NCBI GenBank assembly: GCA_003153935.1
Contig: PMCA01000036.1
Location: 1 to 44,850, forward strand
Direction: 5' to 3'
Length of the DNA stretch: 44,850 nucleotides
Source: Elusimicrobiota bacterium
GTDB taxonomy: Bacteria; CAYTYR01; UBA6262
The position numbers and the translations under genes are program-made. Below are positions 1,139 through 27,482 of this stretch, piece by piece. Numbering within the stretch: position 1 is the stretch's first letter; each line of letters starts with the position of its first letter. The notes below the pieces were generated by a model that searched no databases, was not told the DNA's origin, and saw nothing but the letters and a program-made list of their open reading frames with translations.

Positions 1139-1172
1139 TGCAGTTGATAGTTAAGTGTTGATAGTTGATAGA
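1139..1172. repeat. Heptamer array between guaA and purC
   Basis: Four 7-base units in register at 1142-1169: AGTTGAT, AGTTAAG, TGTTGAT, AGTTGAT. The array begins three bases after the guaA stop codon and ends about 10 bases before the purC Shine-Dalgarno sequence (AGAGGA). It is a single arm with no inverted partner nearby. The same unit recurs at 14891-14918 and 19878-19898. Confidence 0.8.
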
Positions 1173-1189
1173 AAATACAGAGGAAACAA

Positions 1190-2074
1190 ATGATAGTTAC
1201 TGAAACAAACATTAAAGAGTTTCCCTTATTGACCAAAGGTAAAGTCCGCGACGTCTACGACCTCGGCGATGAATTGCTGATCGTGGCCAGCGACCGTATC
1301 AGCGCTTTTGATTTTGTTTTGCCGACGCCGATACCGGACAAGGGGAAGATACTGACGCAAATCAGCGTTTTTTTCTTTGACCTTACCAAGGAAATCATCC
1401 CCAATCACCTTATAACCACTGATGTCGCCAAATTTCCGCAGGAACTGGCGTCTTATAGCGCCATACTGAAAGACCGTTCCATGCTGGTCAAAAAAGCCAA
1501 ACGCCTGGACGTTGAATGCGTAGTCAGGGGATACCTGGCCGGCAGCGGCCTAAAGGACTATAGGAGGACCCAAAGCGTCTGCGGCATTAAACTTCCCGCC
1601 GGCCTGGTGGAGGGCGATAGACTTCCGGCAGATATATTCACCCCGTCAAGTAAAGCTGAACAGGGACTGCATGACGAGAATATAACCGAGCAGGAAGTCG
1701 AGAAGCTCGTAGGGAAGAAATTAGCCGGCGAACTGAGAGAAAAAAGCTTGAGTGTCTACAAAAAAGCCAGTGACTACGCCCGCGGCAAGGGCATTATTTT
1801 AGCCGATACTAAGTTCGAGTTTGGCCTGGTAGGCGGGCAGATGATCCTGATCGACGAGGTTTTCACGCCGGATTCATCGCGCTTCTGGGACCTGGCAGAA
1901 TACCAGCCAGGAAAACCGCAGCCCAGTTTTGACAAGCAATTCGTCCGCGACTACCTGGAGAGCCTGCATTGGTCCAAGCAACCGCCGGTGCCGGTCCTGC
2001 CGGAAGACATAGTACATAAAACACGGGAGAAATATCTGGAGGCCTATAAGCGGCTGACGGGAAAAGAGTTATAG
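1190..2074 (+). CDS. purC: SAICAR synthase
   Basis: Phosphoribosylaminoimidazole-succinocarboxamide synthase joins CAIR and aspartate with ATP in IMP synthesis. The protein has 294 residues, the usual size of the longer bacterial/eukaryotic-type enzyme. It shows the N-terminal GKVRDVYD nucleotide-binding motif, SDRISAFD, the substrate motif VVRGYLAGSG (about 110-120) and the C-terminal segment with DTKFEFG. The start is the ATG preceded by AGAGGA at a normal distance. It follows guaA across a heptamer array and is followed 7 bases later by purS, so it is very likely cotranscribed. Confidence 0.97.
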   Translation: MIVTETNIKEFPLLTKGKVRDVYDLGDELLIVASDRISAFDFVLPTPIPDKGKILTQISVFFFDLTKEIIPNHLITTDVAKFPQELASYSAILKDRSMLVKKAKRLDVECVVRGYLAGSGLKDYRRTQSVCGIKLPAGLVEGDRLPADIFTPSSKAEQGLHDENITEQEVEKLVGKKLAGELREKSLSVYKKASDYARGKGIILADTKFEFGLVGGQMILIDEVFTPDSSRFWDLAEYQPGKPQPSFDKQFVRDYLESLHWSKQPPVPVLPEDIVHKTREKYLEAYKRLTGKEL

Positions 2075-2081
2075 AAAAATT

Positions 2082-2564
2082 ATGATCTACCGTATCGAAG
2101 TCGGTTACAAAAAAAACATCCTGGATGCCCTGGGAGAGAGCGTCAATAAGGATATACACGACCTGGGCATAAAGAAAGTTTCCAAAGTTAAGTCGGTGCA
2201 GATCTATAAAATAGACGCCGACTTAAATTTTGCCCAGGTGGATGAACTCTGCCGCAAGCTCCTGATCGATCCCATTACCCAGGAATATCTGGTTAACCAA
2301 CCGGTGGAACACGAAGCCGCGCTGCCTCATATCCTGGTCGAGGTCTGGTTCAAGAAGGGGGTTACCGACGCCGTGGGGGATACGGTGATCACCGGCGCGC
2401 GTGACCTGAACATCCAGGGCGCCATAAACTCCGTTCACACCGGTACCAAGTATGTTCTGTACGGCCAGAAACTTACCACCCAGCAGGCGGAAACCATCGC
2501 CCGTAAACTGCTGGCTAACGCCATCGTGCAGGACTATAATATTAACCAGGGAAAACTCGCATGA
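2082..2564 (+). CDS. purS: PurS, tandem-duplicated single-chain form
   Basis: PurS is the small structural subunit of the PurL-PurQ-PurS FGAM synthase complex and helps pass ammonia from PurQ to PurL. Canonical PurS is about 80 residues and works as a dimer. This protein has 160 residues made of two PurS-like halves. Residues 1-77 run from YRIEVGYKKNILDALGE to LLIDPITQEYLV. Residues about 82-160 run from HILVEVWFKKGVTDAVGD to KLLANAIVQDYNI. Each half has the beta-alpha-beta-beta-alpha pattern and the KLL(I/A)(D/N)xI(T/V)Q(E/D)Y ending. Position between purC and purL, with a 4-base ATGA overlap into purL, supports the role. That the fusion acts as a covalent dimer is inference. Confidence 0.9.
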   Translation: MIYRIEVGYKKNILDALGESVNKDIHDLGIKKVSKVKSVQIYKIDADLNFAQVDELCRKLLIDPITQEYLVNQPVEHEAALPHILVEVWFKKGVTDAVGDTVITGARDLNIQGAINSVHTGTKYVLYGQKLTTQQAETIARKLLANAIVQDYNINQGKLA

Positions 2565-4981
2565 CGGAAACAGATAAAGTAAGCATCATCAACATACGGG
2601 ATCAGGGAGATGACGGACTGCTGGCTATTTCCCGCAAGAACCTGCTAGCCCTTAATTTAACGGAGATGAAGACCATCCAGGATTATTTCCGCGACCTTGG
2701 CCGAGATCCGACCGACGTGGAGCTGGAAACGCTGGCCCAGACCTGGAGCGAACATTGCAAGCATAAGACCCTGCGGGGGATCATTGAGTACAGATCGCAG
2801 ACGGCAGATGGCAGTTGGCAGTCAGAAACGATTGACAATCTATTAAAACAAACCGTGATGAAGGCCACCGCGGAACTTAACCTGCCCTGGTGCCTCAGTG
2901 TCTTTAAAGATAACGCCGGGGTTATAGATTTTACTAAAGACAACGCCCTGGCCTTTAAGGTGGAGACCCATAATCACCCCTCGGCGCTCGAGCCCTACGG
3001 CGGAGCAGGGACGGGTATCGGCGGCGTTATCCGGGATATAGTGGGGGTTGGCCTCGGCGCCAAACCGGTCGTCAATACCGATGTTTTTTGTTTCGGGCCG
3101 CCGGATACGCCTTTTGATTCTATCAGCGATAGTATCCTGCATCCGAAACGGATAGCCAAAGGAGTGGTCGCCGGTGTCAGGGATTACGGTAACCGCATGG
3201 GTATACCGACCACCAACGGCGCGGTTATATTTGACCCCAGCTTTATTTATAATCCGCTGGTGTTCTGCGGCACCGTCGGTCTGATGCCGAAAAAATATAT
3301 CAGCAAGGAAGTGCTTCCCGGGGACCTGGTCCTGGCAGTAGGCGGGCGCACCGGGCGGGACGGGATCCACGGCGCCACTTTTTCATCCATAGAGCTGGAC
3401 AAGGAGACCGAGGTTTCAGCCGTACAAATAGGCAATCCGATCGTAGAAAAGAAAGTTACGGATACTCTGCTGAAAGCCCGCGACCTGGACCTGTATCGCG
3501 GCGTTACCGACTGTGGCGCTGGTGGTTTCTCTTCGGCAGTCGGGGAACTGGGTGAGAGTTGCGGAGCCAGGGTCTACCTGGACCGGGCGCCTTTGAAATA
3601 CCAGGGAATGCTACCCTGGGAGATCTGGATCAGCGAATCGCAGGAAAGAATGGTACTGGCCGTGCCGCCGGAAAACCTGGACCGCATCATGGAAATATTT
3701 ACTGCGGAAAATGTGGAAGCCACGGTCATCGGACAGTTCACCGCCACTAAAAAACTGGAATTATTATATAACGAGGAAACGGTCGCCACCCTGGATATGG
3801 ATTTCCTGCACGACGGGGTACCGAGATACGTCAGGAAAGCGATGTGGCAGTTACATAAACACGAAGAACCGTCTGCGAGTCGCGAGTCGCGGGTCGCGGG
3901 TCAGAAATCATTGGGGAAGATTTTAAAACAAATTCTTTCACAGCCGACGGTAGCCAGCAAAGAGTGGATCATCCGGCAATACGATCATGAAGTCCAGGGT
4001 GGCAGCATCATCAAACCGCTGACCGGCGCCGTGAATGACGGGCCCAGCGATGCTTCTGTCTGCCGTCCGGACCTGTCCAGCTGGTCAGGATTTGTAGTGT
4101 CCAACGGGATCAATCCGCGCTACGGACTGATAGACCCTTACTGGATGACCGCCAGCGCTATAGACGAAGCTCTGCGTAACCTGGTCTGCGTAGGCGGGGA
4201 TATAGAAAGAACAGCCCTGCTGGATAATTTTTGCTGGGGCAATCCCGACAAGGAAGAACAACTAGGCGGTATCGTGCGCGCCGCCCGGGCCTGCTATGAC
4301 GCCGCTAAGGCCTATAAAACACCGTTCATCAGCGGTAAGGACAGTTTAAACAACGAATACTCGCTGGAAGGCAGATCCTTATCGATCATGGCTACGATGC
4401 TTATATCGGCCATTTCCGTTATCTCCGATGTAAGAAAATGCATCACAATGGATATCAAGAAGAGCGGAAATTTGATCTACCTACTGGGTGATACTTATGA
4501 GGAATTAGGCGGTTCGCAGTACCTGGCGCTGTTGGGTTTAACGGGCAATGGTGTCCCCAGGGTTAATTTCGCTAAAGCCAAGTCGTTATTTACCTCCTTA
4601 ACTAAAGCCATCGGGCAAGGCCTCGTTGCCTCCTGCCATGACTTGAGCGAAGGCGGCCTGGCGGTGGCAGCGGCGGAGATGGCTTTTGCCGGGAATCTTG
4701 GGATGGAAATACAGTTGGCAGATGGCAGTTGGCAAATAGCAGATAAAGACAAAAACGAAACCGCGATACTTTTCAGTGAAAGTAATTCCAGATTTTTGGT
4801 GGAAGTGGACCCAAAGAATAAAAAAGCTTTTGAAAAAGCGATGAAAGGGCAGTCTGTAGCTTTGATCGGTAAGGTTCGTAAAGATAAAACTTTGCAGGTC
4901 AAAGGATTAGGTGGGAAAGTAATTTTAAAAGAAAATATCGCCGGGCTGAAAGAAACCTGGCAGAAAACGTTAAGATGGTAA
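2561..4981 (+). CDS. purL: FGAM synthase, large subunit PurL
   Basis: Phosphoribosylformylglycinamidine synthase II uses ATP and ammonia from PurQ to make FGAM. At 806 residues it is longer than the common small PurL (about 720-750). It has the signature WSEHCKHKT near residue 65, VETHNHPSALEPYGGA (about 136-150), GRTGRDGIHGATFSS, DCGAGG and the second-half HDLSEGG motif near 690. Three insertions at residues about 79-88, 439-448 and 718-729 are encoded by heptamer arrays. They read through in frame and seem to lie in loops or the inter-half linker. The ATG overlaps the purS stop by four bases and purQ starts 1 base after the stop. Function is secure; the insertions are unusual. Confidence 0.97.
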   Translation: MTETDKVSIINIRDQGDDGLLAISRKNLLALNLTEMKTIQDYFRDLGRDPTDVELETLAQTWSEHCKHKTLRGIIEYRSQTADGSWQSETIDNLLKQTVMKATAELNLPWCLSVFKDNAGVIDFTKDNALAFKVETHNHPSALEPYGGAGTGIGGVIRDIVGVGLGAKPVVNTDVFCFGPPDTPFDSISDSILHPKRIAKGVVAGVRDYGNRMGIPTTNGAVIFDPSFIYNPLVFCGTVGLMPKKYISKEVLPGDLVLAVGGRTGRDGIHGATFSSIELDKETEVSAVQIGNPIVEKKVTDTLLKARDLDLYRGVTDCGAGGFSSAVGELGESCGARVYLDRAPLKYQGMLPWEIWISESQERMVLAVPPENLDRIMEIFTAENVEATVIGQFTATKKLELLYNEETVATLDMDFLHDGVPRYVRKAMWQLHKHEEPSASRESRVAGQKSLGKILKQILSQPTVASKEWIIRQYDHEVQGGSIIKPLTGAVNDGPSDASVCRPDLSSWSGFVVSNGINPRYGLIDPYWMTASAIDEALRNLVCVGGDIERTALLDNFCWGNPDKEEQLGGIVRAARACYDAAKAYKTPFISGKDSLNNEYSLEGRSLSIMATMLISAISVISDVRKCITMDIKKSGNLIYLLGDTYEELGGSQYLALLGLTGNGVPRVNFAKAKSLFTSLTKAIGQGLVASCHDLSEGGLAVAAAEMAFAGNLGMEIQLADGSWQIADKDKNETAILFSESNSRFLVEVDPKNKKAFEKAMKGQSVALIGKVRKDKTLQVKGLGGKVILKENIAGLKETWQKTLRW
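2795..2825 (+). repeat. In-frame heptamer array 1 inside purL
   Basis: Four units in register: TCGCAGA, CGGCAGA, TGGCAGT, TGGCAGT. They encode SQTADGSWQ at PurL residues 79-87, just after the conserved SEHC signature. An 18-base stretch at 2803-2820 is identical to 4717-4734 in the same gene and is read in the same frame. Confidence 0.85.
3875..3902 (+). repeat. In-frame heptamer array 2 inside purL
   Basis: Four perfect-register units: GCGAGTC twice, then GCGGGTC twice. They encode ASRESRVAG at residues 439-447, in the linker between the two PurL halves. The same CGAGTC/CGGGTC words occur in the carB-alaS spacer at 27452-27482. Confidence 0.88.
4712..4746 (+). repeat. In-frame heptamer array 3 inside purL
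   Basis: Five units in register: CAGTTGG, CAGATGG, CAGTTGG, CAAATAG, CAGATAA. They encode QLADGSWQIADK at residues 718-729. The TAG and TAA in the last two units are out of frame. It shares 21 of 23 bases with 2798-2820. Confidence 0.85.
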
Positions 4982-4982
4982 A

Positions 4983-5777
4983 ATGCTAAAACCTAAAGTA
5001 CTCATACTACGAACGGCCGGTACGAATTGCGATATGGAGACGGAACACGCTTTCCGCCTTGCCAGCGGTGATCCGCGCCGGGTGCACATAAATGAACTGG
5101 TGGCCAAAAGGGAAGTTATGGCCAGTTATGATATCCTGGCCATACCCGGCGGCTTTTCTTACGGCGATGATATCGCCAGCGGCAAGGTCCTGGCCAACGA
5201 ATTGCGTTATGAGTTAGGTGAACAAGTACGCGATTTTGCTTCCTGCGGCAAGCCGGTCATCGGTATCTGCAACGGTTTCCAGGTATTGGTAAAAGCCGGT
5301 TTACTGCCCGGGTTCACGCCCATAGACGAAGAGTTGCAGGCTACGCTTACTTTTAACGATTCTGCTAAATTCGAGGCCCGGTGGATCTATCTCAAGGTTT
5401 CCACTAAGAACAAATGCTTATGGACCAAAGGCATTAAAAAATTATTGACCTTACCCGTAGCCCACGGCGAGGGCAAGTTCATACCCAGGGAGAAGAAAGT
5501 GCTCGATCTGTTAAAAAATAACGGCCAGGTAGTACTGCAATATACTGACGCCAAAGGTAAGTCTGCCGGCTATCCGGCCAACCCGAACGGCTCAGTGGAA
5601 AGTATTGCCGGCATCTGCAACCCGCAAGGTAATGTGTTCGGCCTGATGCCGCATCCGGAGAGGCACTTAACCAAATATAACCATCCCCGTTGGACCAGGG
5701 AAAAACTTGGCGAGAAGGGTGACGGCTTACAGATTTTTATAAATGCAGTAGAGTACTCAAAGAAGAAAAAGTTATAA
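4983..5777 (+). CDS. purQ: FGAM synthase, glutaminase subunit PurQ
   Basis: Class I glutamine amidotransferase that releases ammonia for PurL. The protein has 264 residues, slightly longer than the Bacillus type (about 227). The N-terminus [14 protein letters not shown] is typical. The catalytic triad is visible as Cys96 in GICNGFQ, and His224 and Glu226 in MPHPER. The gene lies 1 base after purL, and with purS and purL it makes up the three-subunit enzyme. Its stop codon TAA (5775-5777) is the last three bases of the first GTTATAA heptamer unit of the downstream repeat, so the C-terminal end of the reading frame runs into the repeat. Confidence 0.96.
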
Positions 5778-5852
5778 GTTATAAGTTTTAAGTTATGGAT
5801 AAATTTATTCTACCTAAACTTAACACTTAACACTTTAAACTTTCAACTTATG
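5771..5852. repeat. Inverted heptamer element between purQ and purF
   Basis: The left arm 5771-5798 has four units: GTTATAA, GTTATAA, GTTTTAA, GTTATGG. The right arm 5818-5852 has five units: ACTTAAC, ACTTAAC, ACTTTAA, ACTTTCA, ACTTATG. The arms are imperfect reverse complements around a loop of about 19 bases and can fold into a long AT-rich hairpin. The left arm supplies the purQ stop codon. The right arm ends 4 bases before the purF Shine-Dalgarno AAGAGG (5857-5862). Confidence 0.85.
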
Positions 5853-5868
5853 TACTAAGAGGTTATCA

Positions 5869-7224
5869 ATGTATAATGAATTAAATGAAAAATGCGGAGT
5901 ATTCGGTATCTACGGCCACCTGGAAGCGGCCCGGTTGACTTACCTGGGCTTGTACGCTCTCCAGCACCGTGGCCAGGAATCAGCCGGGATCGTCACTGCC
6001 GACGGCCGTAATATGTTTTCCCACCTGGGCATGGGCCTGGTGGCGGATATTTTTAACCGCGATGTCCTGGATAAATTGCCCGGTTACCTGGCTATCGGTC
6101 ATAACCGTTATTCAACTACCGGTATGAGTTTTATTAAGAACGCGCAGCCGATCCTGATCAAATACGCCAAGGGCCAGCTTGCCATCGGACATAATGGCAA
6201 TCTTACCAATACCGACCAGATACGGCAACGCCTGGAAAAAGAAGGCTCGATATTCCAAACCACCAGCGATACCGAGGTGATCCTGCATCTTATCGCCAAA
6301 GCCAACGGCGTCCCTCTGGATGTAGCAGTGGTCAAGGCACTGAAACAGGTTAAAGGCGCCTATTCCCTGGTCATGGCCACGGCGGATACTTTGATCGCGG
6401 CACGTGATCCTTACGGGGTTCGCCCGCTCTGCCTGGGCCGTTTGGGAGACGCTTATGTAATTTCCAGCGAAACTTGCGCCCTGGACCTGATCAACGCCAC
6501 TTATGTCCGCGATATAGAGCCCGGTGAACTGGTCATCATAAACGATCAAGGGCTCAAGAGCATAAAATTCGCCAAAGAAAGAAAATCGGCTTTGTGTATT
6601 TTTGAATTTATCTACTTCAGCCGCCCGGATAGTTATGTTTTCGGTCACAACGTCCATATGATCAGGCGGGAATACGGCAAACAGCTGGCCCGGGAATCGC
6701 AGGTAAAAGCTGACCTGGTCATACCGGTACCGGACAGCGCCAACAGCGCGGCCGTGGGCTACGCCGAACAAGCGGGCATACCCTTTGAAACAGGGTTGAT
6801 ACGTAACCACTACATCGGAAGGACTTTCATCGAACCCGACCAGCAGATACGCGACTTCGGCGCCAAGATCAAATACAATCCAGTACGGGAAGTGTTGAAG
6901 GGCAAACGCGTGGTGGTAATAGACGATTCTATTGTCAGAGGCACGACCTCGCGTAAGCTGGTAAAAATGATCTACGAGGCCGGCGCCAAGGAAGTGCACC
7001 TGCGCATCAGTTCCCCGCCGATAATCGGACCCTGTTTTTACGGTATTGACACACCGACCAAAAAGGAACTGATCGCCAGCTCCCATACCGTAAAAGAGAT
7101 AGAAAAATATCTTGGGGTGGATAGCCTGCGCTACCTGAGCCTGTCGGGATTATTAAAAGCCAGCAAGGTAGAATCAACCAAGTTTTGTTGCGCCTGTTTC
7201 ACTGATGACTACCCGATAAAATAG
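5869..7224 (+). CDS. purF: Amidophosphoribosyltransferase
   Basis: First committed step of purine synthesis: PRPP plus glutamine to phosphoribosylamine. The protein has 451 residues. It starts with an 8-residue propeptide before Cys9 (KCGVFGIYG), the N-terminal nucleophile after processing. The glutaminase domain has HRGQESAGI and IGHNRYST. The PRPP-binding motif [16 protein letters not shown] lies near residue 347. Cys in [14 protein letters not shown], Cys in GPCFYG and the C-terminal CCACF match the iron-sulfur (Bacillus-type) PurF. The ATG is preceded by AAGAGG. A heptamer hairpin separates it from purQ; purD follows after 8 bases. Confidence 0.97.
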
Positions 7225-7232
7225 GAGAAGTC

Positions 7233-8561
7233 ATGAACATCCTCGTGATCGGCGGGGGCGGACGCGAACATGCCCTCGTATGGAAACTAAGGCAAAGTCC
7301 CGCAGCCGGTGAGATACATTGCCTGCCGGGAAACGCGGGTATAGAAGGTATCGCCAAATGCGCCGATAAACCCGTGGATGATTTACCGGCTATAGACAAA
7401 TACTGCAAGAATCACAACATCGGGCTGGTAGTGGTCGGACCCGAAGTGCCCCTGATAAAAGGAATTACCGACTATCTGGAACAGCGCAACTACAAGGTCT
7501 TTGGTCCCAATAAGCAGGCCGCTATGCTGGAAGGCAGTAAGGCGTACTCCAAGAATTTCATGAAGAAATACGGGATACCGACACCTCGTTTTGAAATATT
7601 CACCCATCCTAAACAAGCCCTTGATTTTATCAAGAAGCCGGTCTTTAAGAACGGTGTGGAAAAAGCCGGATATCCGATCGTGGTCAAAGCCGACGGATTA
7701 GCCGCGGGCAAAGGCGTCATCATCTGCCACAACCAGGCGGAGGCGGAAAAGGCCGTGGACATGATCATGCTCAAAAAGATGTTCGGCCAGGCCGGCGACA
7801 AAGTTATCATGGAAGAATGCCTGGAAGGGGAAGAAGCGTCGTTCCTGTGTTTTACCGATGGGGAAACAATTGTTCCCATGCTTCCCGCCCAGGACCATAA
7901 AAGGGTTTACGACGACGATAAGGGACCCAATACCGGCGGCATGGGCAGCTACGCGCCCGTAACCAAGCTCAGCGCGGAGCTGATGCGCAAGATTCAGGAA
8001 CGAGTCCTGAACGGTACTTTGCAGGGATTGAAACAGGAAAAGATCCGCTATCGCGGAGTGATCTTTGTCGGAATAATGATTGTCAAAGATGAGCCCTATG
8101 TGTTAGAATATAACGTTAGGTTCGGTGATCCGGAGACAGAAGTGATACTGCCACTGTTAAAGACGGACCTGGTCAAGATAATCGAATATATCTCCATAGG
8201 TAAATTGAAAGATATAAAGATCGAATGGGAAAATAAATCCTGCGTCTGCGTCGTCATGGCCAGCGAAGGCTACCCCGGAGGATTCCCTAAGGGGAAGGTG
8301 ATAACCGGGCTAGACAGCGCCGCTGCCTTAAAAGAAACCATGGTTTTCCACGCTGGCACCGCTTATCCTCAGCGGGAGACGGCCCAGGGACTGATAGAAT
8401 ACGACCGTTCAAAAATTGTTACCAGCGGCGGCCGGGTACTGGGAGTTACCACCCTGGGAACAGACCTGAGGGAAGCGATTGACCGGGCCTACCAGGCTGT
8501 GGGTATGATACAGTTCGAGGGAGCTCACTGGCGCAAGGATATAGGTAAAAAAGGGCTATAA
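7233..8561 (+). CDS. purD: Phosphoribosylamine-glycine ligase (GAR synthetase)
   Basis: ATP-grasp ligase making GAR from phosphoribosylamine and glycine. The 442 residues are slightly longer than usual (about 425), partly through the insert FIKKPVFKNGVEKAG before VVKADGLAAGKGVI. Motifs seen: N-terminal ILVIGGGGREHAL, GPEVPL, LEGSKAYSK, DHKRVYDDDKGPNTGGMG, EYNVRFGDPETE. The start is the ATG after AGGAGA in the 8-base gap from purF. It ends just before the second inverted heptamer element. Confidence 0.97.
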   Translation: MNILVIGGGGREHALVWKLRQSPAAGEIHCLPGNAGIEGIAKCADKPVDDLPAIDKYCKNHNIGLVVVGPEVPLIKGITDYLEQRNYKVFGPNKQAAMLEGSKAYSKNFMKKYGIPTPRFEIFTHPKQALDFIKKPVFKNGVEKAGYPIVVKADGLAAGKGVIICHNQAEAEKAVDMIMLKKMFGQAGDKVIMEECLEGEEASFLCFTDGETIVPMLPAQDHKRVYDDDKGPNTGGMGSYAPVTKLSAELMRKIQERVLNGTLQGLKQEKIRYRGVIFVGIMIVKDEPYVLEYNVRFGDPETEVILPLLKTDLVKIIEYISIGKLKDIKIEWENKSCVCVVMASEGYPGGFPKGKVITGLDSAAALKETMVFHAGTAYPQRETAQGLIEYDRSKIVTSGGRVLGVTTLGTDLREAIDRAYQAVGMIQFEGAHWRKDIGKKGL

Positions 8562-8572
8562 AGACAAAAACT

Positions 8573-8660
8573 GTGTTAAGTTTTAAGTGATAAGTGTTAA
8601 ATTAATGAAATGATTTTTAACCTAAACTTAAAACTTTTAACTTATAACTTAAAACTATAA
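8573..8660. repeat. Inverted heptamer element between purD and purE
   Basis: The left arm 8573-8600 has four units: GTGTTAA, GTTTTAA, GTGATAA, GTGTTAA. The right arm 8626-8660 has five units: ACTTAAA, ACTTTTA, ACTTATA, ACTTAAA, ACTATAA. The arms are imperfect reverse complements around a loop of about 25 bases. This has the same four-plus-five layout as the purQ-purF element, with related but not identical units. Confidence 0.85.
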
Positions 8661-8686
8661 TAAAGACTGTAATGTGGAGATTATTT

Positions 8687-9148
8687 ATGAAACATAAAGT
8701 AGCTATCATAATGGGCAGCGAATCGGACCGCGAGATCATGGCCGAAGCGGGAAACGTTTTGGACTCTTTCCAGATACCCTACGAGATCAAGGTAATGAGC
8801 GCGCATCGCACCCCGGAAAAAGTGGCGGCCTTCGCCAAACAAGCGGAGCAACACGGCTTCACCGTGATCATCTCCGGAGCCGGTAAAGCGGCACACCTGC
8901 CGGGAGTTATCGCCGCCTATACGGCACTGCCCGTAATAGGCGTACCGATCAAGACTAAGGACCTGTACGGTCTGGACTCCTTGCTGTCCATCGTGCAAAT
9001 GCCAGCCGGCGTGCCTGTAGCGACAGTAGCCATTAACGGGGCCAAGAACGCCGGCATATTAGCCGCGCAAATCGTCTCCCTTTACGATAAGAAAGTCAGC
9101 AATCAGGTAAAGGCTTATAAAAAACGGCTGGCCGCCGGGAGTAAATAA
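8687..9148 (+). CDS. purE: N5-carboxyaminoimidazole ribonucleotide mutase (class I PurE)
   Basis: Interconverts N5-CAIR and CAIR. SAHRTP, the AAHLPG motif and [16 protein letters not shown] match class I PurE, which normally depends on PurK; no purK is seen here. The usual GAGGAAHLPG reads [11 protein letters not shown] chose the ATG at 8687 because GGAGA (8676-8680) lies 6 bases upstream; a longer frame from the ATG at 8672 would add five residues (MWRLF) and lack a ribosome-binding site. The product has 153 residues. Its TAA stop overlaps the pyrR ATG by one base. Confidence 0.94.
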
Positions 9149-9702: not shown

Positions 9703-9710
9703 TAATGCAG

Positions 9711-9736
9711 TCTCTAAACCAAGGAGGTTTAAGGGA
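9711..9736 (+). promoter_or_regulatory. Candidate PyrR-binding hairpin over the pyrB Shine-Dalgarno
   Basis: TAAACC (9715-9720) and GGTTTA (9726-9731) form a 6-bp stem with loop AAGGA. The perfect Shine-Dalgarno AGGAGG (9722-9727) lies in the loop and 3' arm, 9 bases before the GTG start. The string CCAAGGAGGTT matches my recollection of the Bacillus PyrR loop consensus CCNGNGAGGYU at 10 of 11 positions. The hairpin itself is visible; PyrR binding is inference from the match and the adjacent pyrR. Confidence 0.6.
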
Positions 9737-14318: not shown

Positions 14319-14896
14319 TAACACCGGTAAAGGTTTTAGATATATTCCAGGAAAACCAGGCTCTGCTAAAGGGTCATTTCCAGCTTTCCAGCGGACTGCA
14401 CAGCGAGAAGTACCTGCAATGCGCGCTGGTGCTGCAGCATCCCAAGCTGGCTAAAATATTGGGCAAGACACTAGCTGAGCAATTTAACAGTGCCCAGGTT
14501 ATCAGCGTAGTGAGTCCCGCTCTGGGCGGCCTGATCATCGGGCACGAAGTAGCCAAAGCGCTGGGAACCCGTTTCATCTTTACCGAGAGGCAGGAAGGGC
14601 GCATGGTATTGCGCCGCGGCTTCAGTATTGAAAAGGGCGAGAAGGTAATAGTTATCGAGGATGTATTCACCACCGGCGGGTCCACCAAGGAAGTCATAGA
14701 AGTGGTAAAAAGCTATGGCGGCGAGGTCAGCGCGGTAGGTGCCATTATCGACCGCAGCGACGCGGATATAGATTTCGGCGTACCCGGGAAATACCTTTTG
14801 AAACTTAAAATAAAAACTTACGAACCGGCCAAATGCCCGCTCTGCAAAGAAGGCTTGCCGGTTTATAAACCAGGCTCGAGAGCGAAAACTGGTTGA
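14315..14896 (+). CDS. pyrE: Orotate phosphoribosyltransferase
   Basis: Adds ribose phosphate from PRPP to orotate. The protein has 193 residues. FQLSSGLHSEKYLQC is the substrate region and VIVIEDVFTTGGSTKE (about 111-126) the PRPP motif. The C-terminal CPLCKEGLPVYKPGSR is found in the longer PyrE subgroup. The ATG overlaps the pyrF stop. The TGA stop (14894-14896) lies within the first heptamer unit of the downstream array, so the repeat supplies the end of the frame. Confidence 0.96.
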   Translation: MITPVKVLDIFQENQALLKGHFQLSSGLHSEKYLQCALVLQHPKLAKILGKTLAEQFNSAQVISVVSPALGGLIIGHEVAKALGTRFIFTERQEGRMVLRRGFSIEKGEKVIVIEDVFTTGGSTKEVIEVVKSYGGEVSAVGAIIDRSDADIDFGVPGKYLLKLKIKTYEPAKCPLCKEGLPVYKPGSRAKTG

Positions 14897-14919
14897 TCGT
14901 TCATAGTTGATAGTTGATA
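14891..14919. repeat. Heptamer array between pyrE and purM
   Basis: Four units in register at 14891-14918: GGTTGAT, CGTTCAT, AGTTGAT, AGTTGAT. The pyrE stop codon TGA lies in the first unit. It is a single arm, with no inverted partner before purM. Units match those at 1142-1169. Confidence 0.8.
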
Positions 14920-14946
14920 AATAATACTTAGATCAGGAGCGGAAAT

Positions 14947-15933
14947 TTGGATTATAGAAAAGCAGGGGTTAATATAAACGCGGGAGAAAGACTCGTGGAA
15001 ATGATCAAGCCTTTAGCTAAAGCCACCAGGCGCCCCGAAGTTATCGCCGATATCGGCGGTTTTAGCGCCCTGTTTGACGGTTCATTCAGGAAACTCAGAC
15101 ATCCGGTGCTGGTTTCCTCAACCGACGGGGTAGGGACCAAGTTAAAACTGGCTTTCCTGCTTAACAAGCATGATACAGTAGGTATCGACCTGGTAGCTAT
15201 GGGCGTCAACGATATTATCACCTGCGGGGCGGAACCGCTGTTTTTCCTAGATTATTTTGCCTGCGGCAGGTTAGATGTGAAAAACGCTTCCAAGGTCATA
15301 AAAGGCATTGCCGAGGGCTGTAAACAGGCCGGCTGTACCCTGATCGGCGGTGAAACCGCAGAGATGCCAGGATTTTACCCGCCGGGGGAGTACGACCTGG
15401 CCGGTTTCGCCGTGGGGGTTGTGGACAAAGATAAAATTATTAACGGGAAGAACATAAAACCGGGGGACCTGGTTATCGGCTTGCCTTCCAGCGGCCCGCA
15501 CTCCAACGGTTATTCCCTGATACGCAAAATATTCACTAACGTAGAGTTAAAAAAATACCAAAAAGAATTATTTGCGCCTACAAAAATATATGTGCGTGAA
15601 ATTCTAAACGCTATACGCTATATGCCAAACACTATTAAGGGCCTGGCCCACATAACCGGCGGCGGTTTCCTGGACAATATACCGCGCATCCTGCCACCGC
15701 AATGCCAGGTGCAGATAAACGCCGGAGCCTGGCCGTTGCCGGAGATATTTTACCTGATGGAACAGAAGGGCAATGTACCAGTCGAAGAAATGTACCGGAC
15801 TTTCAATATGGGTATCGGTATGATAATGATAGTGGCTAAAGACAGATCAGCCGCACTATTGAAGTTGTTTAAAGATGGCAAGGTTCTCGGCCAGGTGGTA
15901 AAAGGGAATCGCGACGAGGTGAAAATAGTTTGA
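14947..15933 (+). CDS. purM: AIR synthetase (phosphoribosylformylglycinamidine cyclo-ligase)
   Basis: ATP-dependent cyclisation of FGAM to AIR. The protein has 328 residues, close to the family's usual 340. The N-terminal [22 protein letters not shown] (about 57-65), [12 protein letters not shown] and the C-terminal [13 protein letters not shown] are signatures. The start is TTG with AGGAG 8-12 bases upstream; no better ATG or GTG is available before the conserved DYRKAGV. Its TGA overlaps the purN TTG by four bases. Confidence 0.96.
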
Positions 15934-18085: not shown

Positions 18086-18087
18086 TA

Positions 18088-18141
18088 ATGGCGAAGAAAA
18101 AAGCGAAGAAAAAAGTAGCTAAGAAGAAAAAGAAAAGATAA
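18088..18141 (+). CDS. 17-residue lysine-rich micropeptide
   Basis: The frame from ATG 18088 to TAA 18141 encodes MAKKKAKKKVAKKKKKR, with 13 of 17 residues Lys or Arg. AAGGAGGG (18074-18081) gives a near-ideal ribosome-binding site about 7 bases upstream. The alternative ATG at 18082 (two residues longer) is too close to that site. The frame begins 2 bases after the HD-GYP stop. A role in binding nucleic acid or ribosomes is only a guess from charge. Translation itself is not proven, but the ribosome-binding site argues for it. Confidence 0.55.
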   Translation: MAKKKAKKKVAKKKKKR

Positions 18142-19872: not shown

Positions 19873-19877
19873 AATGC

Positions 19878-19940
19878 AGTTCATAGTTGATAGTTGATTG
19901 AAAAAGCTTTCACAATCAACAATAAACGATCAACAATCAA
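19878..19940. repeat. Inverted heptamer element between purH and dCMP deaminase
   Basis: The left arm 19878-19898 has three units: AGTTCAT, AGTTGAT, AGTTGAT. The right arm 19913-19940 has four units: CAATCAA, CAATAAA, CGATCAA, CAATCAA. GTTGATTG (19893-19900) pairs exactly with CAATCAAC (19913-19920). The next in-register heptamer, CAGGAGT, carries the Shine-Dalgarno of the following gene. Confidence 0.85.
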
Positions 19941-19951
19941 CAGGAGTTTAC

Positions 19952-20401
19952 ATGCGGCCGAATTGGGACCAATATTTTATGCAGATAGCCCAGGTGATCG
20001 CCACCCGAGCCACTTGCTTGCGGCGCAACGTGGGAGCGGTCCTGGTCAAAAATAAGCGCATCATCTCCACCGGGTACAACGGTACCCTGACCGGATTGCC
20101 GCACTGCGACCGGGTAGGCTGCCTGCGCGAGAAACAGGGAATACCTTCCGGGCAAAGGCAGGAATTATGCCGGGGCATGCATGCCGAGGCCAACGCGCTT
20201 TTATTCGCGTCCACCTACGGCATAGACATGCATAACGCCACGTTGTATTCAACCAACCAGCCCTGCGTGTCCTGCGCCAAGATGATAATCCAGGCAGGCA
20301 TAAAAAAGGTAGTATTCGAAGGTGCATATCCTGACCGCCTGGCGGTGCAGATGTTCAAGCAGGCCAAAGTCAAGCTTGAGAAATTTAAACACAACCGTTA
20401 A
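19952..20401 (+). CDS. Deoxycytidylate deaminase family protein (ComEB-like)
   Basis: Zinc-dependent deaminase most like dCMP deaminase, which feeds dUMP for thymidylate. The protein has 149 residues from the ATG at 19952. Zinc ligands and the catalytic Glu are visible: His77 and Glu79 in GMHAEANA, and Cys105 and Cys108 in QPCVSC. I placed the start here because CAGGAG lies 5 bases upstream and RPNWDQYFM is the typical N-terminus. A frame extending to TTG 19898 would be encoded by the repeat. It is a pyrimidine-salvage gene inside the purine run. Confidence 0.9.
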   Translation: MRPNWDQYFMQIAQVIATRATCLRRNVGAVLVKNKRIISTGYNGTLTGLPHCDRVGCLREKQGIPSGQRQELCRGMHAEANALLFASTYGIDMHNATLYSTNQPCVSCAKMIIQAGIKKVVFEGAYPDRLAVQMFKQAKVKLEKFKHNR

Positions 20402-20421
20402 CTGTTTCGAAAGGAGCGATC

Positions 20422-21714
20422 ATGATCCCGCGTTATAGCACACCGGAAATGGAAAAGATCTGGACCGACGAAAATAAATTCCAGAAAATGCTGGAAGTGG
20501 AGATCCTGGCCTGCGAAGCCATGGCCAAAATAGGCATTATCCCCGCGGCTGCGCCGGCGGCCATACGCAAAAAGGCCGTTATCGATGTTGATCGTATCCG
20601 GGAGATAGAAAATACCACGCATCATGACGTGATCGCGTTCCTGACCCAGCTGGAAGAGCGGGTCGGAGCCGAAGCTAAATATATACATCTGGGCCTTACT
20701 TCTTCCGATGTGCTGGATACAGCGCTCAGTCTGCAGATGCGGGAAAGCCTGGACATTATCCTGGCCGACCTGCAAAACCTGGCCGCCGTGCTGAAGAAAC
20801 AGGCCAAAGCCTATAAAAACACCCTTATGGTAGGCCGGACCCACGGCATATACGCGGAACCGGTCACTTTTGGCCTTAAACTGGCTTTATGGTATTCTGA
20901 CACCCTGCGTAACATTCAACGCGTAAAAGAGCTGATTCCGGTCGTCAGCGTTGGCAAGATCAGCGGGGCGGTGGGGACTTACGCCAATATTGACCCGCGC
21001 GTCGAATCCTATGTCTGCCGGAAACTCAAACTTCAGGCCGCGCCGATCTCCACCCAGATACTGCAACGCGACCGGCACGCCCAGTATCTCAGCGTGCTGG
21101 CCATCTGCGCCGCCAGCATCGAAAAATTCGCTACCGAGATCAGGCACCTGCAGCGCAGTGAAGTCCGGGAGGTCGAAGAATTTTTTGCCAAGGGACAAAA
21201 GGGTTCCAGCGCCATGCCGCATAAACGCAATCCCATAACCTGCGAACAGCTTTGCGGCCTGGCCCGTATCATCCGCGGTAACGTCACCCCAGCCCTGGAA
21301 AATATCACCCTGTGGCACGAGCGGGATATCAGCCATTCCTCTGTAGAGCGGGTGATCCTGCCTGATAGTTCTACCTTGCTGGATTATATGCTGAAGAAAT
21401 TCATCAAGGTTGCCGGCAACCTTCTGGTCTATCCTGATAACATGAAAGAGAACCTGGAGAGAACCAAGGGGCTGATTTTCTCGCAACAGGTTCTGCTTAA
21501 TCTTATAGACAAAGGCGTCGCCCGCCAGCAGGCTTATGTCATCGTCCAGCGTAACGCCATGCGGGTCTGGCAGGAGAAAGGTAATTTCAACGATTACCTG
21601 AAAGATGACGCCGAGCTGCAGCAATATGTCAGCGCCAAAGAGATCGACGCCAGTTTCGATTATAAGTACCATTTGAAAAACATAGATAAAATATTCAAAA
21701 GACTGAAAATATAA
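20422..21714 (+). CDS. purB: Adenylosuccinate lyase
   Basis: Cleaves SAICAR to AICAR and adenylosuccinate to AMP. The protein has 430 residues. The fumarase-superfamily signature GSSAMPHKRNP (261-271), with its flexible catalytic Ser loop, is intact. TSSDVLDTA and GRTHGIYAEPVTFG are further marks. AAAGGAG precedes the ATG. purA follows after 21 bases, giving the expected purB-purA order for AMP synthesis. Confidence 0.97.
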   Translation: MIPRYSTPEMEKIWTDENKFQKMLEVEILACEAMAKIGIIPAAAPAAIRKKAVIDVDRIREIENTTHHDVIAFLTQLEERVGAEAKYIHLGLTSSDVLDTALSLQMRESLDIILADLQNLAAVLKKQAKAYKNTLMVGRTHGIYAEPVTFGLKLALWYSDTLRNIQRVKELIPVVSVGKISGAVGTYANIDPRVESYVCRKLKLQAAPISTQILQRDRHAQYLSVLAICAASIEKFATEIRHLQRSEVREVEEFFAKGQKGSSAMPHKRNPITCEQLCGLARIIRGNVTPALENITLWHERDISHSSVERVILPDSSTLLDYMLKKFIKVAGNLLVYPDNMKENLERTKGLIFSQQVLLNLIDKGVARQQAYVIVQRNAMRVWQEKGNFNDYLKDDAELQQYVSAKEIDASFDYKYHLKNIDKIFKRLKI

Positions 21715-21720
21715 GAATAA

Positions 21721-23034
<1,314 letters not shown>

Positions 23035-23056
23035 GTATGATTCGAAAGGAACCATC

Positions 23057-24166
23057 ATGACAAAAGCAGTGCTGGCTCTAGAGGATGGGACGATCTTCCA
23101 CGGTATTAGCTTCGGCGCGGAGGGTGAAAGCTACGGGGAAGTAGTTTTCAATACCTCCATGACCGGATACCAGGAAATCATTACCGACCCGTCTTATAAA
23201 GGGCAGCTGATCACCATGACCTATACGGAGATCGGTAATTACGGCATAAACGAAGAAGATGTGGAAGCCAGCCAGATCTACTGCGAAGGACTCATCGTCA
23301 AGGAATATTCCAAGGTTTATTCCAACTGGCGCGCCACCAAATCATTGTCCGATTACTTGAAGGAACAGGGCAAACCTGGTATAGAAGGCATCGATACCAG
23401 GAAATTGACCAGGCTGCTGCGTACCAAGGGAGCGATGAGAGGTCTTATCTCCACCATCGATTTCAACGAGAAATCTTTGCTGGCCAAAGTACGCAAATCG
23501 CCGGTAATGGTGGGACAGGACCTGGTGAAGAATGTAACCTGCGCAGAAATTTACCATTGGCATACGCCGGAACAGGAATGGATCGCCACGCCGAAACAGA
23601 AGAAATACAAGGTAGTGGCCATCGACTGCGGCGTCAAACAGAATATCCTGCGCCTGCTGGAATCCGTGGGCTTCGACGTAACCGTGGTCCCGGCCCGCAC
23701 CGACGCCAACACTATCCTTGGTTTAAATCCGGATGGCGTCTTTATATCCAACGGTCCCGGCGATCCCGAACCAGTTACTTATGTGATCGAAACCGTACGC
23801 CAACTGCTGGGTAAAAAACCCATTTTCGGCATCTGCCTCGGGCACCAGATTTTGGGGCTGGCCCTGGGTGGTAAGACTTACAAGCTGAAATTCGGACATC
23901 ACGGCGCCAATCACCCGGTCAAGAACCTGGCCAGCAGCAAGATCGAGATAACCGCGCAGAACCACGGCTTCTGCGTCGACATAAATTCACTGAGCCAGAA
24001 CGACATCGAACCCACCCACATCAATTTAAACGATAATACCAACGAAGGTTTCCGTCACAAGAAGTATCCGGCTTTCTGCGTGCAATACCATCCCGAGGCC
24101 TCGCCCGGCCCGCACGACTCCCGGTATTTATTTGACGAATTCATAAACCTGATGGAGAAGCGTTAA
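23057..24166 (+). CDS. carA: Carbamoyl-phosphate synthase small (glutaminase) subunit
   Basis: Supplies ammonia for carbamoyl phosphate. The protein has 369 residues. The N-terminal domain has [18 protein letters not shown]. The amidotransferase domain has the catalytic Cys260 in GICLGHQ, and His345 and Glu347 in [18 protein letters not shown] precedes the ATG. carB follows after 2 bases. The pair supplies the pyr genes, yet lies about 9 kb downstream of them, after the purine genes. Confidence 0.97.
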
Positions 24167-24168
24167 TC

Positions 24169-27100
24169 ATGCCCAAACGCACCGACCTGAAAAAGATAAT
24201 GTTGATCGGCTCGGGTCCGATAATCATCGGCCAGGCCTGCGAATTCGATTATTCCGGAACCCAGGCCTGTAAAGCCCTGAAGGAAGAGGGCTATGAGATC
24301 ATCCTGGTCAATTCCAATCCCGCGACAATCATGACTGACCCGCAGATCAGCGACCGTACTTATATCGAGCCTTTAACCGTGGAGATACTGGAGAAAATCA
24401 TCGCCAAGGAACGGCCGGACGCTTTACTGCCGACCATCGGCGGACAAACCGCTCTGAACCTGACCGTGGCCCTGGTGGAGAAAGGCATCATCGACAAATA
24501 CCAGGTGGAATTGATCGGCGCCGATTTCGAAGCTATCCGCCGCGCCGAGGACCGTAACGTTTTTAAGAAGACCATGCAGAATATCGGTATGGACCTGCCC
24601 AAAAGCGGTTACGCCCACAGCATCAATGAAGCCCTGGAGATCGCCAAAGGCATCGGTTTCCCGCTGGTGCTCCGTCCATCATTTACTCTCGGCGGCACCG
24701 GCGGCAGCATCGCCTATAATATCGACGAGTTCATGGACCTGGCCGCCTTCGCCCTGGAACACAGCCCCGTCAGCGAAATGCTGATCGAGGAATCGGTGAT
24801 CGGCTGGAAAGAATACGAACTGGAAGTCATGCGCGACCGCAAGGACAACGTAGTGATAGTTTGCTCCATCGAGAATTTCGACCCCATGGGCGTGCACACC
24901 GGCGACAGCATAACCGTAGCGCCGGCACAAACCCTGACCGATAAAGAATACCAGCGCATGCGCGACGCGGCCGTAAAAGTGATCAGGGCCATCGGCGTGG
25001 ATACAGGCGGCAGTAACATCCAATTCGCCATCGATCCAAAGACCGGGCGCATGGTGATCATCGAAATGAACCCCCGTGTCTCCCGTTCTTCCGCCCTGGC
25101 TTCCAAAGCCACCGGATTTCCCATCGCTAAAATTGCCGCCAAACTGGCGGTTGGCTATACCCTCGACGAGATACCCAACGATATTACACAGAAGACCCCG
25201 GCCTGCTTCGAACCGACCATTGATTACGTCGTTACCAAGATACCCCGGTTCGCTTTTGAGAAATTCGCCGGCGCCGACGCGCGCCTGGGAATATCCATGA
25301 AGAGCGTAGGGGAAGTAATGGCCATCGGCCGGACTTTTAAGGAGTCCCTGCAGAAAGCCATTCGCGGCCTGGAGATCGGCCGTCATGGCTTAGGCAACGA
25401 TAATCATTACCTGGAGAAAGAACTTAAGACCGGTCTCAAGAACGAGGAGACACGCAAGGACACCCTGGACCGGATAAAACAATATATCAAGCTGCCTACC
25501 AGCGAGCGCCTTTTCTATATTAAGTACGCCTTGCAGAGCGGTTTTTCCGTCGAAGAAATTGCCGAAGCCAGCCTGATCGACCGCTGGTTCATCCACCAAA
25601 TTAAGGAACTCTGCGATTTTGAAGAGTCACTGCGCGAGATCAAATTCGGAAAATTGAAAACACATGAAAAGTTGGCCGTTCTGACCAGCGCCAAAAAATT
25701 GGGCTATTCCGATTTCCAGCTGGCGCAGATCTTCAATTTAAAAGAGGAATATATCCGCAAATTAAGGTATGGGGCCAAGCTGGTCCCCAACTATAAGCTG
25801 GTCGACACCTGCGCTGCTGAGTTCCAGGCCTTCACGCCGTATTATTATTCTACCTATGAAGACGAGGATGAAAGCAACGAGACCAGCCAAAAGAGCAAGA
25901 AGAAAAAGATCATGATCCTGGGCGGCGGACCTAACCGTATCGGCCAGGGTATAGAATTCGATTATTGCTGTGTGCACGCGGCTTTCGCCCTGGATGAGAT
26001 GGGCTACGAAACTATCATGGTGAATTGCAACCCGGAAACCGTCTCTACCGACTACGACACCAGCGACCGTCTTTACTTCGAACCGGTGACTTTGGAGGAC
26101 GTGCTGAATATCAACCGGCGGGAAAAGCCGGATGGGGTCATTGTGCAGTTCGGCGGCCAAACACCGCTGAACCTGGCTCTGGAACTGAAAAAGAACGGGG
26201 TTAAGATAATCGGAACTTCTCCTGATAATATTGATCTGGCTGAGGACCGCAAGCGTTTCGGCCGGCTGTTGGACAAACTTAAAATACCTCAGGCCGAGAA
26301 TGGCACGGCGATGAGCTTCGGCGAGGCCAAAGCGATCGCCGCCAAGATCGGTTACCCGGTGATGGTGCGCCCCAGTTACGTGCTGGGCGGCCGGGCCATG
26401 GAGATCGTTTACGACGAACAAACCCTGGAGAATTATATACGCAAGGCCAAGGATATCTCGCCGAAACATCCTATCCTGATAGATAAGTTCCTGTCGGACG
26501 CCATTGAGATCGACTGCGACGCGGCCTCCGATGGCAGGGATGTATTCATTGGCGGCATCATGGAGCATATAGAAGAGGCCGGCATCCATTCAGGGGACAG
26601 CGCCTGCGCTTTGCCTCCTTACACTTTGACCGCGGAACAGATCAAAGAGATTAGAACTTATACGACCAAACTGGCGATGGCCCTGCATGTGATAGGGTTG
26701 TTGAATATCCAATACGCCATCAAAGACGGCATTATCTATGTCCTGGAAGTGAATCCGCGGGCCTCCCGTACAGTACCGTTCGTCAGTAAAGCTACCGGCA
26801 TACCTTTAGCTAAGATCGCCGTCGCCTGCATGGTCGGAAAGAAACTTAAGGACCTTAACATCCCGTTGGGCGGGGTACAGATGAAGTATACGGCGGTCAA
26901 AGAGGCCGTTCTGCCATTTATAAAATTCCCGGGCATCGACAGCGTGCTCGGACCAGAAATGAAGTCTACCGGTGAAGTGATGGGCATTGACGCCAATTTT
27001 GGCCTGGCTTTCGCCAAGTCCCAGATGGCCGCCGGCAGTTCCCTGCCAGCGAGCGGTACGGTATTTATCAGCGTCAATGACCGTGATAAAGAAAGGATCG

Positions 27101-27447
27101 TGCCAGTAGCGCGCAAGCTGCAGGATCTTGGTTTTAAGCTGATCGCCACGAAAAATACCGGGGCTGTCCTGACCGGGCACGGTCTGACCATTGAAGAGAT
27201 ATCCAAGATCGGCGAGGGCCGGCCGGACATGGTGGACATTATCAAGAATAAGCAGGTGGACCTGATCATCAATACGCCCAAGGGCACCCGTTCCCGCAGT
27301 GACGGTTATACTATCAGGCAGCACGCACTGATCCATAGCGTGCCGGTCATCACCACGGTTTTCGGCGCGGAAGCCGCCGTGGACGGGATTACCGCCTTGT
27401 CCAAGCAGGGCATCGCAGTCAAGCCGATACAGGAATACTACAAATAA
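24169..27447 (+). CDS. carB: Carbamoyl-phosphate synthase large subunit
   Basis: Makes carbamoyl phosphate from bicarbonate, ammonia and two ATP. The protein has 1092 residues, slightly above the usual 1070. Two ATP-grasp halves are seen: the first from [20 protein letters not shown] and the second from [20 protein letters not shown]. They are joined by an acidic then lysine-rich linker (about 561-582, [16 protein letters not shown]) that is not typical. The C-terminal MGS regulatory domain is about 960-1092 ([12 protein letters not shown] onwards). GGAGAAG upstream serves as the ribosome-binding site. It ends the nucleotide run. Confidence 0.97.
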
Positions 27448-27451
27448 ATCA

Positions 27452-27482
27452 ACGAGTCTCCGGGTCTTCGGGTCACGAGTCA
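27452..27482. repeat. CGAGTC-type repeat between carB and alaS
   Basis: Four copies of the word CG(A/G)GTC at 7-8 base spacing: ACGAGTC, TCCGGGTC, TTCGGGTC, ACGAGTC. It starts 5 bases after the carB stop. The word matches the in-frame array 2 of purL (GCGAGTC/GCGGGTC). Two units are 8 bases long, so the register is less strict. Confidence 0.7.

Follow-up and report, generated by a model that had tools for sequence, protein, structure and literature searches.

An excess of heptamer repeats in bacterial genomes has been noted before, and slippage, regulation and exchange have all been proposed as its cause. The short tandemly repeated repetitive (STRR) heptamers of cyanobacteria, associated with Mazel (1990) and Elhai (2008), reportedly have small dispersed repeats embedded in their arrays. 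TAACTGA heptamer direct repeats are known in Beggiatoaceae, Cyanobacteria and Bacteroidetes (MacGregor 2015, PMC4679880), and the GGGAATC and GGGGA(T/C)T repeats of Xanthomonas and Nostoc have been proposed to form G-quadruplexes (PMC4692102). Here we analyze arrays of period 7 in a 44,850-nt stretch of the genome of an Elusimicrobiota bacterium (GCA_003153935.1, contig PMCA01000036.1; hereafter, the window), which holds a cluster of purine genes with pyrE and carB, ten of the gene names being backed by NCBIfam. The closest known systems are bacterial heptamer repeats on the one hand and, on the other, repetitive extragenic palindromic (REP) doublets forming hairpins (REPINs) and miniature inverted-repeat transposable elements (MITEs). 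The initial annotation's statement that there is no described family is not supported, given that heptamer tandem repeats are described in several bacterial lineages in the two papers cited above.

The arrays resemble the TAACTGA repeats (PMC4679880) in their seven-base period, the few units per set, a mostly intergenic and sometimes genic position, length differences among close strains that go in steps of 7 nt, the existence of repeat-free relatives and a patchy distribution across phyla; moreover, TAACTGA read on the opposite strand is an AGTT-type word, as here. That system has one favoured word and, in the main genome studied, one inverted repeat, whereas here we find many words, paired inverted arms, family-specific loops and word swaps within genes. 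With the GGGAATC and GGGGA(T/C)T repeats (PMC4692102) the arrays share the heptamer period, a mostly intergenic position, some inverted pairs and variation of length and sequence among close relatives; unlike those repeats, the words here mostly lack runs of three Gs (by eye). Like REPINs (PMC3116915) and MITEs, the elements have two inverted arms and a less conserved spacer, are of similar size, and are dispersed and extragenic; singlets of REPINs are seen as remnants, and a REP-transposase-like Y1 gene is present here as well.

Trait by trait, the inverted doublet that forms a hairpin and is dispersed extragenically (REPIN type) is present for paired arrays only, and unlike REPINs, the arms are degenerate arrays of tandem heptamers instead of a REP with one conserved, invariant 16-mer, and no array was found next to a Y1 gene at the eight loci compared. 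As in MITEs, the inverted-repeat elements are dispersed and non-autonomous and have both filled and empty sites; the STRR-like traits of over-represented exact 7-bp tandem units and words common to other lineages are present too. Degenerate seven-base tandem units with embedded small palindromes, as reported for STRR, also occur here (compare the Chamaesiphon locus L206 and an insert in a purL gene, both described below); in the present elements, the arms are opposed on either side of a loop, which may set them apart from STRR. The literature searched, which excludes most subscription papers, yielded no account of hairpin elements with heptamer arrays as their arms.

Many of the paired arrays belong to dispersed hairpin families of ~75–105 bp, with four or five degenerate heptamers per arm and a family-specific loop. 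We consider it probable, at roughly two in three, that the arrays between genes chiefly belong to hairpin elements that are interspersed, lineage-specific and non-autonomous. For two families, we observed copies with the same loop between different flanks, differing numbers of matches, some filled and empty sites, and other copies inherited in place. The window's genome (G000) was compared with three relatives (G001, G002 and G003), its only family mates in a set of 59 genomes including its own, which holds one class mate. When a 20-kb stretch of G003 was compared with three relatives, its hairpins matched dozens of places besides the syntenic ones. Two families were aligned and captured in covariance models: family A (model R1), in which each arm comprises about five AGTTWWA units and AAGGTA...CACCT lies on the inside, and whose members include 5769–5851 and 8573–8656 of the window, and the TAGCG family. 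Family A gave 38 matches in G000, 48 in G001, 6 in G002 and 45 in G003, and the TAGCG family 0, 59, 72 and 45 two-strand matches, respectively; these counts are lower bounds, the best 150 first-look candidates having been scored in many genomes, and the family A model was trained without G002 sequences and the TAGCG model without G000 sequences. Because a palindrome matches on both strands, the 38 matches in G000 correspond to 19 places. Among seven more distant genomes, family A gave one weak match in a single genome, and the covariance model of the TAGCG family gave none.

A 73-bp TAGCG element of G003 (L085:13471–13543) is 94.5% identical to a copy in G002 (L269:6689–6761), with the loop and the order of units in common and different flanks, and 86.7% identical to a copy in G001 (L274:6555–6629), again between different flanks. 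By eye, the left arm is 14 bp short in the G002 copy at L269:3653, and a second G002 copy, at L272, contains a different palindrome within its arm. The number of units varies between copies in 7-bp steps, both in the TAGCG family and in copies from a Planctomycetaceae genome described below. The suspicion of the initial annotation that many words reflect one kind of thing is supported: a good number of the arrays between genes form the arms of hairpins dispersed through the genome.

Tandem Repeats Finder (TRF) confirmed period-7 arrays at all places named in the initial annotation except the last, where 27456–27474 was assigned period 8. By an ungapped period score, the window contains eight arrays scoring ≥11 and seven scoring ≥12; 100 order-3 Markov copies contain on average 0.02 of the former and none of the latter. 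In a 401,486-base sample of G000, window included, 24 period-7 arrays scored ≥12, and other periods from 3 to 30 gave 0–1 each, except for the harmonics (seven arrays of period 14 and six of period 21). Five order-4 Markov copies of this sample gave no period-7 array at score 12; the Markov control proposed in the initial annotation thus yields no such arrays at either order. Among the relatives, period-7 arrays number 23 in G003 (329 kb scanned), 14 in G001 (259 kb) and 3 in G002 (20 kb). Across the 64 arrays of the four genomes, spans range from 19 to 35 bp, none being longer; a single copy number, as initially claimed, is roughly right, with the reservation that the scan threshold drops shorter arrays. 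AGT or ACT is moderately enriched in the heptamer words (0.41 of 176, versus 0.27 in shuffled words). As a separate observation, the 329 kb of G003 also contain 11 arrays of period 8 and 5–8 each of periods 16, 22, 23 and 30, and at L071:3675–3759 in this genome, two genes are separated by inverted arrays whose period is 8 or 16 and whose words resemble ATCAGGNN.

Replication slippage of local seven-base seeds, with a polymerase that favours period 7, is an earlier hypothesis quoted in PMC4692102, where a heptamer excess is said to be known in many bacteria. The 7-bp steps in unit number between copies and the internal homogeneity of the arrays are compatible with it, but inverted partners with family-specific loops, filled and empty sites, 73-bp copies of up to 94.5% identity between different flanks, and the absence of any array above 35 bp among the 64 weigh against it. 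So do unrelated words at one position, with identities of 0.07–0.29 where the third codon positions of the flanks agree at 0.44–0.57 (purL 3875, window and G001 versus G002; purQ, G002 versus G003). Slippage as the overall explanation is quite improbable, and independent slippage is not the main cause of the period-7 arrays, in agreement with the initial annotation, given the dispersed hairpins, the filled and empty orthologous sites and the differing words at fixed sites.

The placement of arrays was assessed in 990 kb of G000, G001 and G003, with a coding fraction of 0.86 by an open reading frame (ORF) rule. The 61 arrays placed comprise 23 coding and 35 non-coding ones and three at gene edges; an inverted partner was found for 20 of the 35 non-coding arrays (15 being unpaired) versus one of the 23 coding arrays, so that 22 of the latter are single. 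Across the four genomes, 22 of 64 arrays have a reverse-complement partner within 90 bp, which exceeds all 120 flank shuffles. Looser seeds produced a list of 36 hairpins, with loops of 0–54 nt. In 32 of these, G exceeds C more strongly in the left arm than in the right, in three the reverse holds and in one the arms are equal, hairpins of one family not being independent in this count; a rule that the G-rich arm always comes first was rejected because of the three hairpins with opposite skew. AGGTA or its complement is found in 11 of 33 loops of at least 8 nt, compared with 1.2 expected, and adjoins the arms: AGGT lies seven times in the left half of the loop and once in the right, and ACCT eight times in the right half.

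The features identified in the window are the following (strand in brackets; a dot marks features without strand):

1142–1171 (+): single heptamer array AGTTGAT, 3 bp past the stop codon of an ORF and before purC; TRF period 7
2797–2822 (+): in-frame array GGCAGAT/GGCAGTT in purL, score 13; TRF 2803–2822
3875–3902 (+): in-frame array in purL of exactly four units GCGAGTC/GCGGGTC, score 18
4712–4746 (+): in-frame array CAGTTGG/CAGATGG in purL, from TRF (4712–4744) and codon alignment
5769–5851 (.): family A hairpin between purQ and purF, with AGTTWWA arms and a loop ending ...TACCTA, score 16 for each arm
8573–8656 (.): family A hairpin between purD and purE, model R1 match G000:C1:8572-8659
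14892–14919 (+): single array GTTGATA over the pyrE stop codon, before purM, score 12
15604–15636 (+): weaker in-frame array CTATACG in purM, TRF 15604–15622, absent from the initial annotation
19878–19942 (.): hairpin behind purH with arms AGTTGAT and ACAATCA, from the inverted-partner test
27456–27482 (+): loose array behind carB with GRGTC cores spaced 8, 8 and 7 bp (by eye); TRF period 8

Between genes of the window, the arrays take up the interval from a stop codon to the following start region. In the hairpin at 5769–5851 (TRF arms 5769–5796 and 5815–5849; model R1 match G000:C1:5763-5851), the stop codon of purQ falls within the left arm. The hairpin at 8573–8656, with TRF arms at 8573–8600 and 8624–8656, is 83% identical over 84 bp to another place in the same genome (L048:5912–5995). 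The arms behind purH were placed by TRF at 19878–19898 and 19912–19942.

At the corresponding junctions of the relatives, other repeats are often present. At the junction of array 1142–1171, G001 carries two arms, TAGCTCA and GAGCTAA, and G003 a decayed palindrome (by eye). The purD-purE junction contains differing repeat words in all four genomes, those of G001, G002 and G003 being unlike the window's, and at the pyrE-purM junction G001 and G003 carry TAGCTCG-type and AGCTGAA arrays. Behind purH, G003 has arms GGTTGCG and AAACTCG. From 87 elements (43 hairpins and 44 single arrays), we obtained 83 element-genome comparisons with both flanks. The purF-purD junction holds a hairpin in G003 and an AT-rich palindrome in G002; in the window and in G001 the gap measures 8 and 13 bp, respectively. 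A junction between what we take to be pheS and pheT is filled in G003, empty in G000 and occupied by other repeats in G001; its flanks share TTTTA, but the element's own end resembles TTTTA too. Among the 83 comparisons, those listed include the site L269:3697, filled in G002 and empty in G001, and the hairpin at L080:17898, which is inherited, being alike in G001, G002 and G003. Presence and absence at orthologous sites, which the initial annotation had suggested looking for, is therefore seen.

These junctions also bear on the possibility that selection maintains the arrays between genes as regulatory hairpins or as sites for protein binding, a role proposed for the TAACTGA repeats (PMC4679880). 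Their position directly past stop codons and ahead of start regions in the window would fit such a role, as would the conservation of some sites in three species; nevertheless, the families are lineage-specific, arrays also lie within genes, and junctions are empty or carry other repeats in relatives, which makes this explanation very improbable.

Other observations concern the neighbourhood of the arrays. A 17-codon ORF at 18088–18141 of the window, preceded by a strong Shine-Dalgarno-like sequence, encodes MAKKKAKKKVAKKKKKR; a similar short lysine-rich ORF is found at the equivalent place in G001 and G003, and the palindrome AATCAGTGGCCACTGATT lies downstream of it in the window, G001 and G003. 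G003 contains a tandem pair of carB-like genes (L071:5077–10866), one of which agrees with the carB of the window at 54% over its full length and the other at 87% over 817 aa (gene cut by the contig end). In G002 (L069), ~3.6 kb extra is present between purL and purQ, compared with the other three genomes.

Within genes, in-frame arrays occupy three sites in purL, one in purQ and one in purM across the four genomes; they are single arms within essential genes, and their word sometimes differs between relatives at the identical spot. At purL 2797, the array is 0.85 identical to that of G001 and 0.81 to that of G003, compared with 0.75–0.76 in the flanks, and 0.58 to that of G002 (flank 0.78). 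At purL 3875, four GCGAGTC-type units in the window correspond at equal length to four ATCAACA units in G002 and to GGCAGAY in G001, with ungapped identities of 0.07 (flank 0.70) and 0.43 (flank 0.71), respectively; in G003, ATCAACA units at this site are broken by an in-frame palindromic insert of 30 bp. This insert (L070:4296–4358) is of TCCGCC..GGCGGA type and lies in frame within the heptamer array. At purL 4712, codon alignment gives CAGATGG in G001, CAGCTGG in G002 and AAGCTGG in G003. The purQ arrays of G002 and G003 are of equal length and 0.07–0.10 identical, G001 has another word and the window no array. The purM array of the window is 0.93 identical to that of G003 (flank 0.69), and G001 carries CCATCTG-type units of equal length at this site (0.56 to the window, flank 0.71); G001 thus differs from G003 in the purM word, although both belong to the same genus. 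In more distant PurL loci, no array was found at the three purL sites in four aligned loci (one partial) of 10.

In-gene arrays are thus often better conserved between relatives than their flanks, or swapped for an unrelated word, and the changing of words at fixed sites that the initial annotation had envisaged is observed between relatives, also within genes and sometimes at equal length. The 39 in-gene comparisons include reciprocals and draw on a small number of independent sites. In 38 of them, 18 or more bases could be compared; of these 38, the array reaches or exceeds flank identity in 14 and is at or below third-codon-position identity in 15, and nine lie between. This split, together with the equal-length differences at purL 3875, purQ and purM, is what one would expect of rewriting in place, whereby a period-7 array of any word is swapped for another ~28-bp array through cassette exchange or conversion from another locus. 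We consider this unlikely: the comparisons are few in origin and not independent, degenerate words make identity noisy, nine values are intermediate, stepwise mutation with homogenization could yield part of the word change, and we found neither a donor tract nor an enzyme (RVT_1 in none and Ku in one of the four genomes). It is conceivable, if doubtful, that arrays at fixed sites are exchanged as ~28-bp cassettes, with the period and often the length kept and the word replaced in one step from the lexicon of the lineage, which would amount to a period-specific, word-blind exchange coupled to a superfamily of heptamer-armed hairpins in several phyla. We know of no description of the exchange process that one-step in-gene word swaps would imply. 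Neutral drift with homogenization may be the sole cause of the in-gene word changes, but the spread of identities is unlike that of one rate.

The hairpin architecture recurs in other lineages. An exact 23-base pattern of AGTTGAT (3.3 units) was found in at least 114 stretches, with Bacteroidota, Cyanobacteria, Planctomycetes, Chloroflexi, Clostridia and others in the record titles, and also in eight viral contigs. Of the 114 loci, 80 hold 116 further period-7 arrays of many words away from the seeds, and array length reaches 212 bp. Neighbouring arrays are opposite in 28 pairs and of the same orientation in 11, and the left-arm G skew of the opposite pairs is positive in 25, neutral in three and reversed in none, all of the loci having been selected by one AGTT word. 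In a Planctomycetaceae genome (G059), a 44-nt core, TCGCAAGCGG...CCGCTTGCGA, lies between heptamer arms in at least 40 places, one of which is the query, with identities of 89–95% for the remaining 39 (40 of 603 candidates scored); G059 is an independent case of the same architecture with another core in another phylum. Seventeen of 24 copies were parsed, one arm per side not being walkable; the arms modally have four units (left 9/17, right 8/17), with a range of 3–9 in walkable arms. Two further loci are of note in themselves. In Chamaesiphon (L206:3878–4014), a 22–24-bp spacer with ACTTCGGCTACGCTCAGTG breaks an AGTTGAT array several times at regular spacing, in the manner of cyanobacterial small dispersed repeats. 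In Bacteroidales (L112:6152–6248 and 6584–6673), two hairpins separated by ~400 bp resemble each other in loop and right arm, but all units of the left arm read AGTTGAG in one and AGTTGAT in the other.

As to the origin of the arms, the initial annotation had named a template-driven process as one that changing words at fixed sites would support. RVT_1 had no match in the four genomes, which are 91–95% complete; reverse-transcriptase templating, whether akin to diversity-generating retroelements (DGRs) or telomerase-like, is therefore unlikely for these elements and was set aside, as was Ku end joining as a general requirement, Ku being present in one of the four genomes. Telomerase- or DGR-like addition of template-coded heptamers at broken ends, in which the healing of both ends would leave inverted arms whose G-rich strands run inward, would account for the G-rich left arm in 32 of 36 hairpins and in 25 of the 28 opposite pairs of other phyla. 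However, besides the enzyme distribution, loops common to many copies are not expected from healed ends, three of the 36 hairpins have the opposite skew, same-family hairpins are not independent and one AGTT word picked all of the 114 loci; we regard end healing as extremely improbable.

Template switching between the two arms of a hairpin was not supported either. In 18 copies of family A, the left arm is matched no better by the right arm of its own copy than by that of another copy (mean 14.9 versus 15.7; permutation p 0.79). In the 17 copies of G059, left and right arms show no correlation in number of units (r 0.05), the numbers being equal in eight copies (permutation p 0.14); unit states equidistant from the core (T/T 21, T/G 17, G/T 12, G/G 12) show no visible association by eye. 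A mirrored order of units, seemingly present in a few copies, did not hold up. Thus, the arms of one hairpin are no more alike than arms of different copies in these two families, which argues against an arm serving as a running template.

Returning to interspersed hairpin elements as the preferred explanation, we propose an element of ~75–105 bp, in which an arm of four or five degenerate heptamers is followed by a short loop particular to the family and then by the inverted arm; such elements would spread by copy-and-insert in a MITE- or REPIN-like manner with an enzyme supplied in trans. Copies would persist chiefly in the space that separates a gene's stop codon from the start region of the following gene, and within genes nearly only single in-frame arms would be tolerated, single arms being either remnants or separate insertions. 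Once inserted, the arms would lengthen or shorten by entire 7-bp units and accumulate variant units; the four-unit length would thus be largely inherited from a master copy. Y1 transposases are present in all four genomes (12 matches in total), and three of the proteins, from G000, G003 and G002, reach 72, 69.8 and 66.1 bits against NF047646 (REP_Tyr_transpos-like), below the cut-off of 80.

Several points weigh against this explanation. None of the eight Y1 loci fetched from the 12 matches has a period-7 array within ~1.5 kb, and the Y1 transposases are therefore candidates only; more generally, no enzyme among the candidates of the four genomes could be linked to the hairpin elements. No clear target-site duplication was seen at the compared junctions, and the uneven training of the two models leaves the differences in match numbers between genomes partly open to bias. 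An inverted partner within 90 bp was not detected for 42 of the 64 arrays of the four genomes, which hairpin elements thus do not directly explain, above all the single in-gene arrays. The origin of the latter is the weakest part of the explanation: at a given fixed position within a gene, words sometimes differ completely, and insertion alone does not account for this.

To conclude, many of the arrays are arms of dispersed hairpins in two unrelated lineages, which recasts the puzzle of heptamer abundance as one of a mobile element and the enzyme behind it. Should the word swaps in purL, purQ and purM occur in a single step, they would point to an exchange process, and these sites would be the places for a direct assay.

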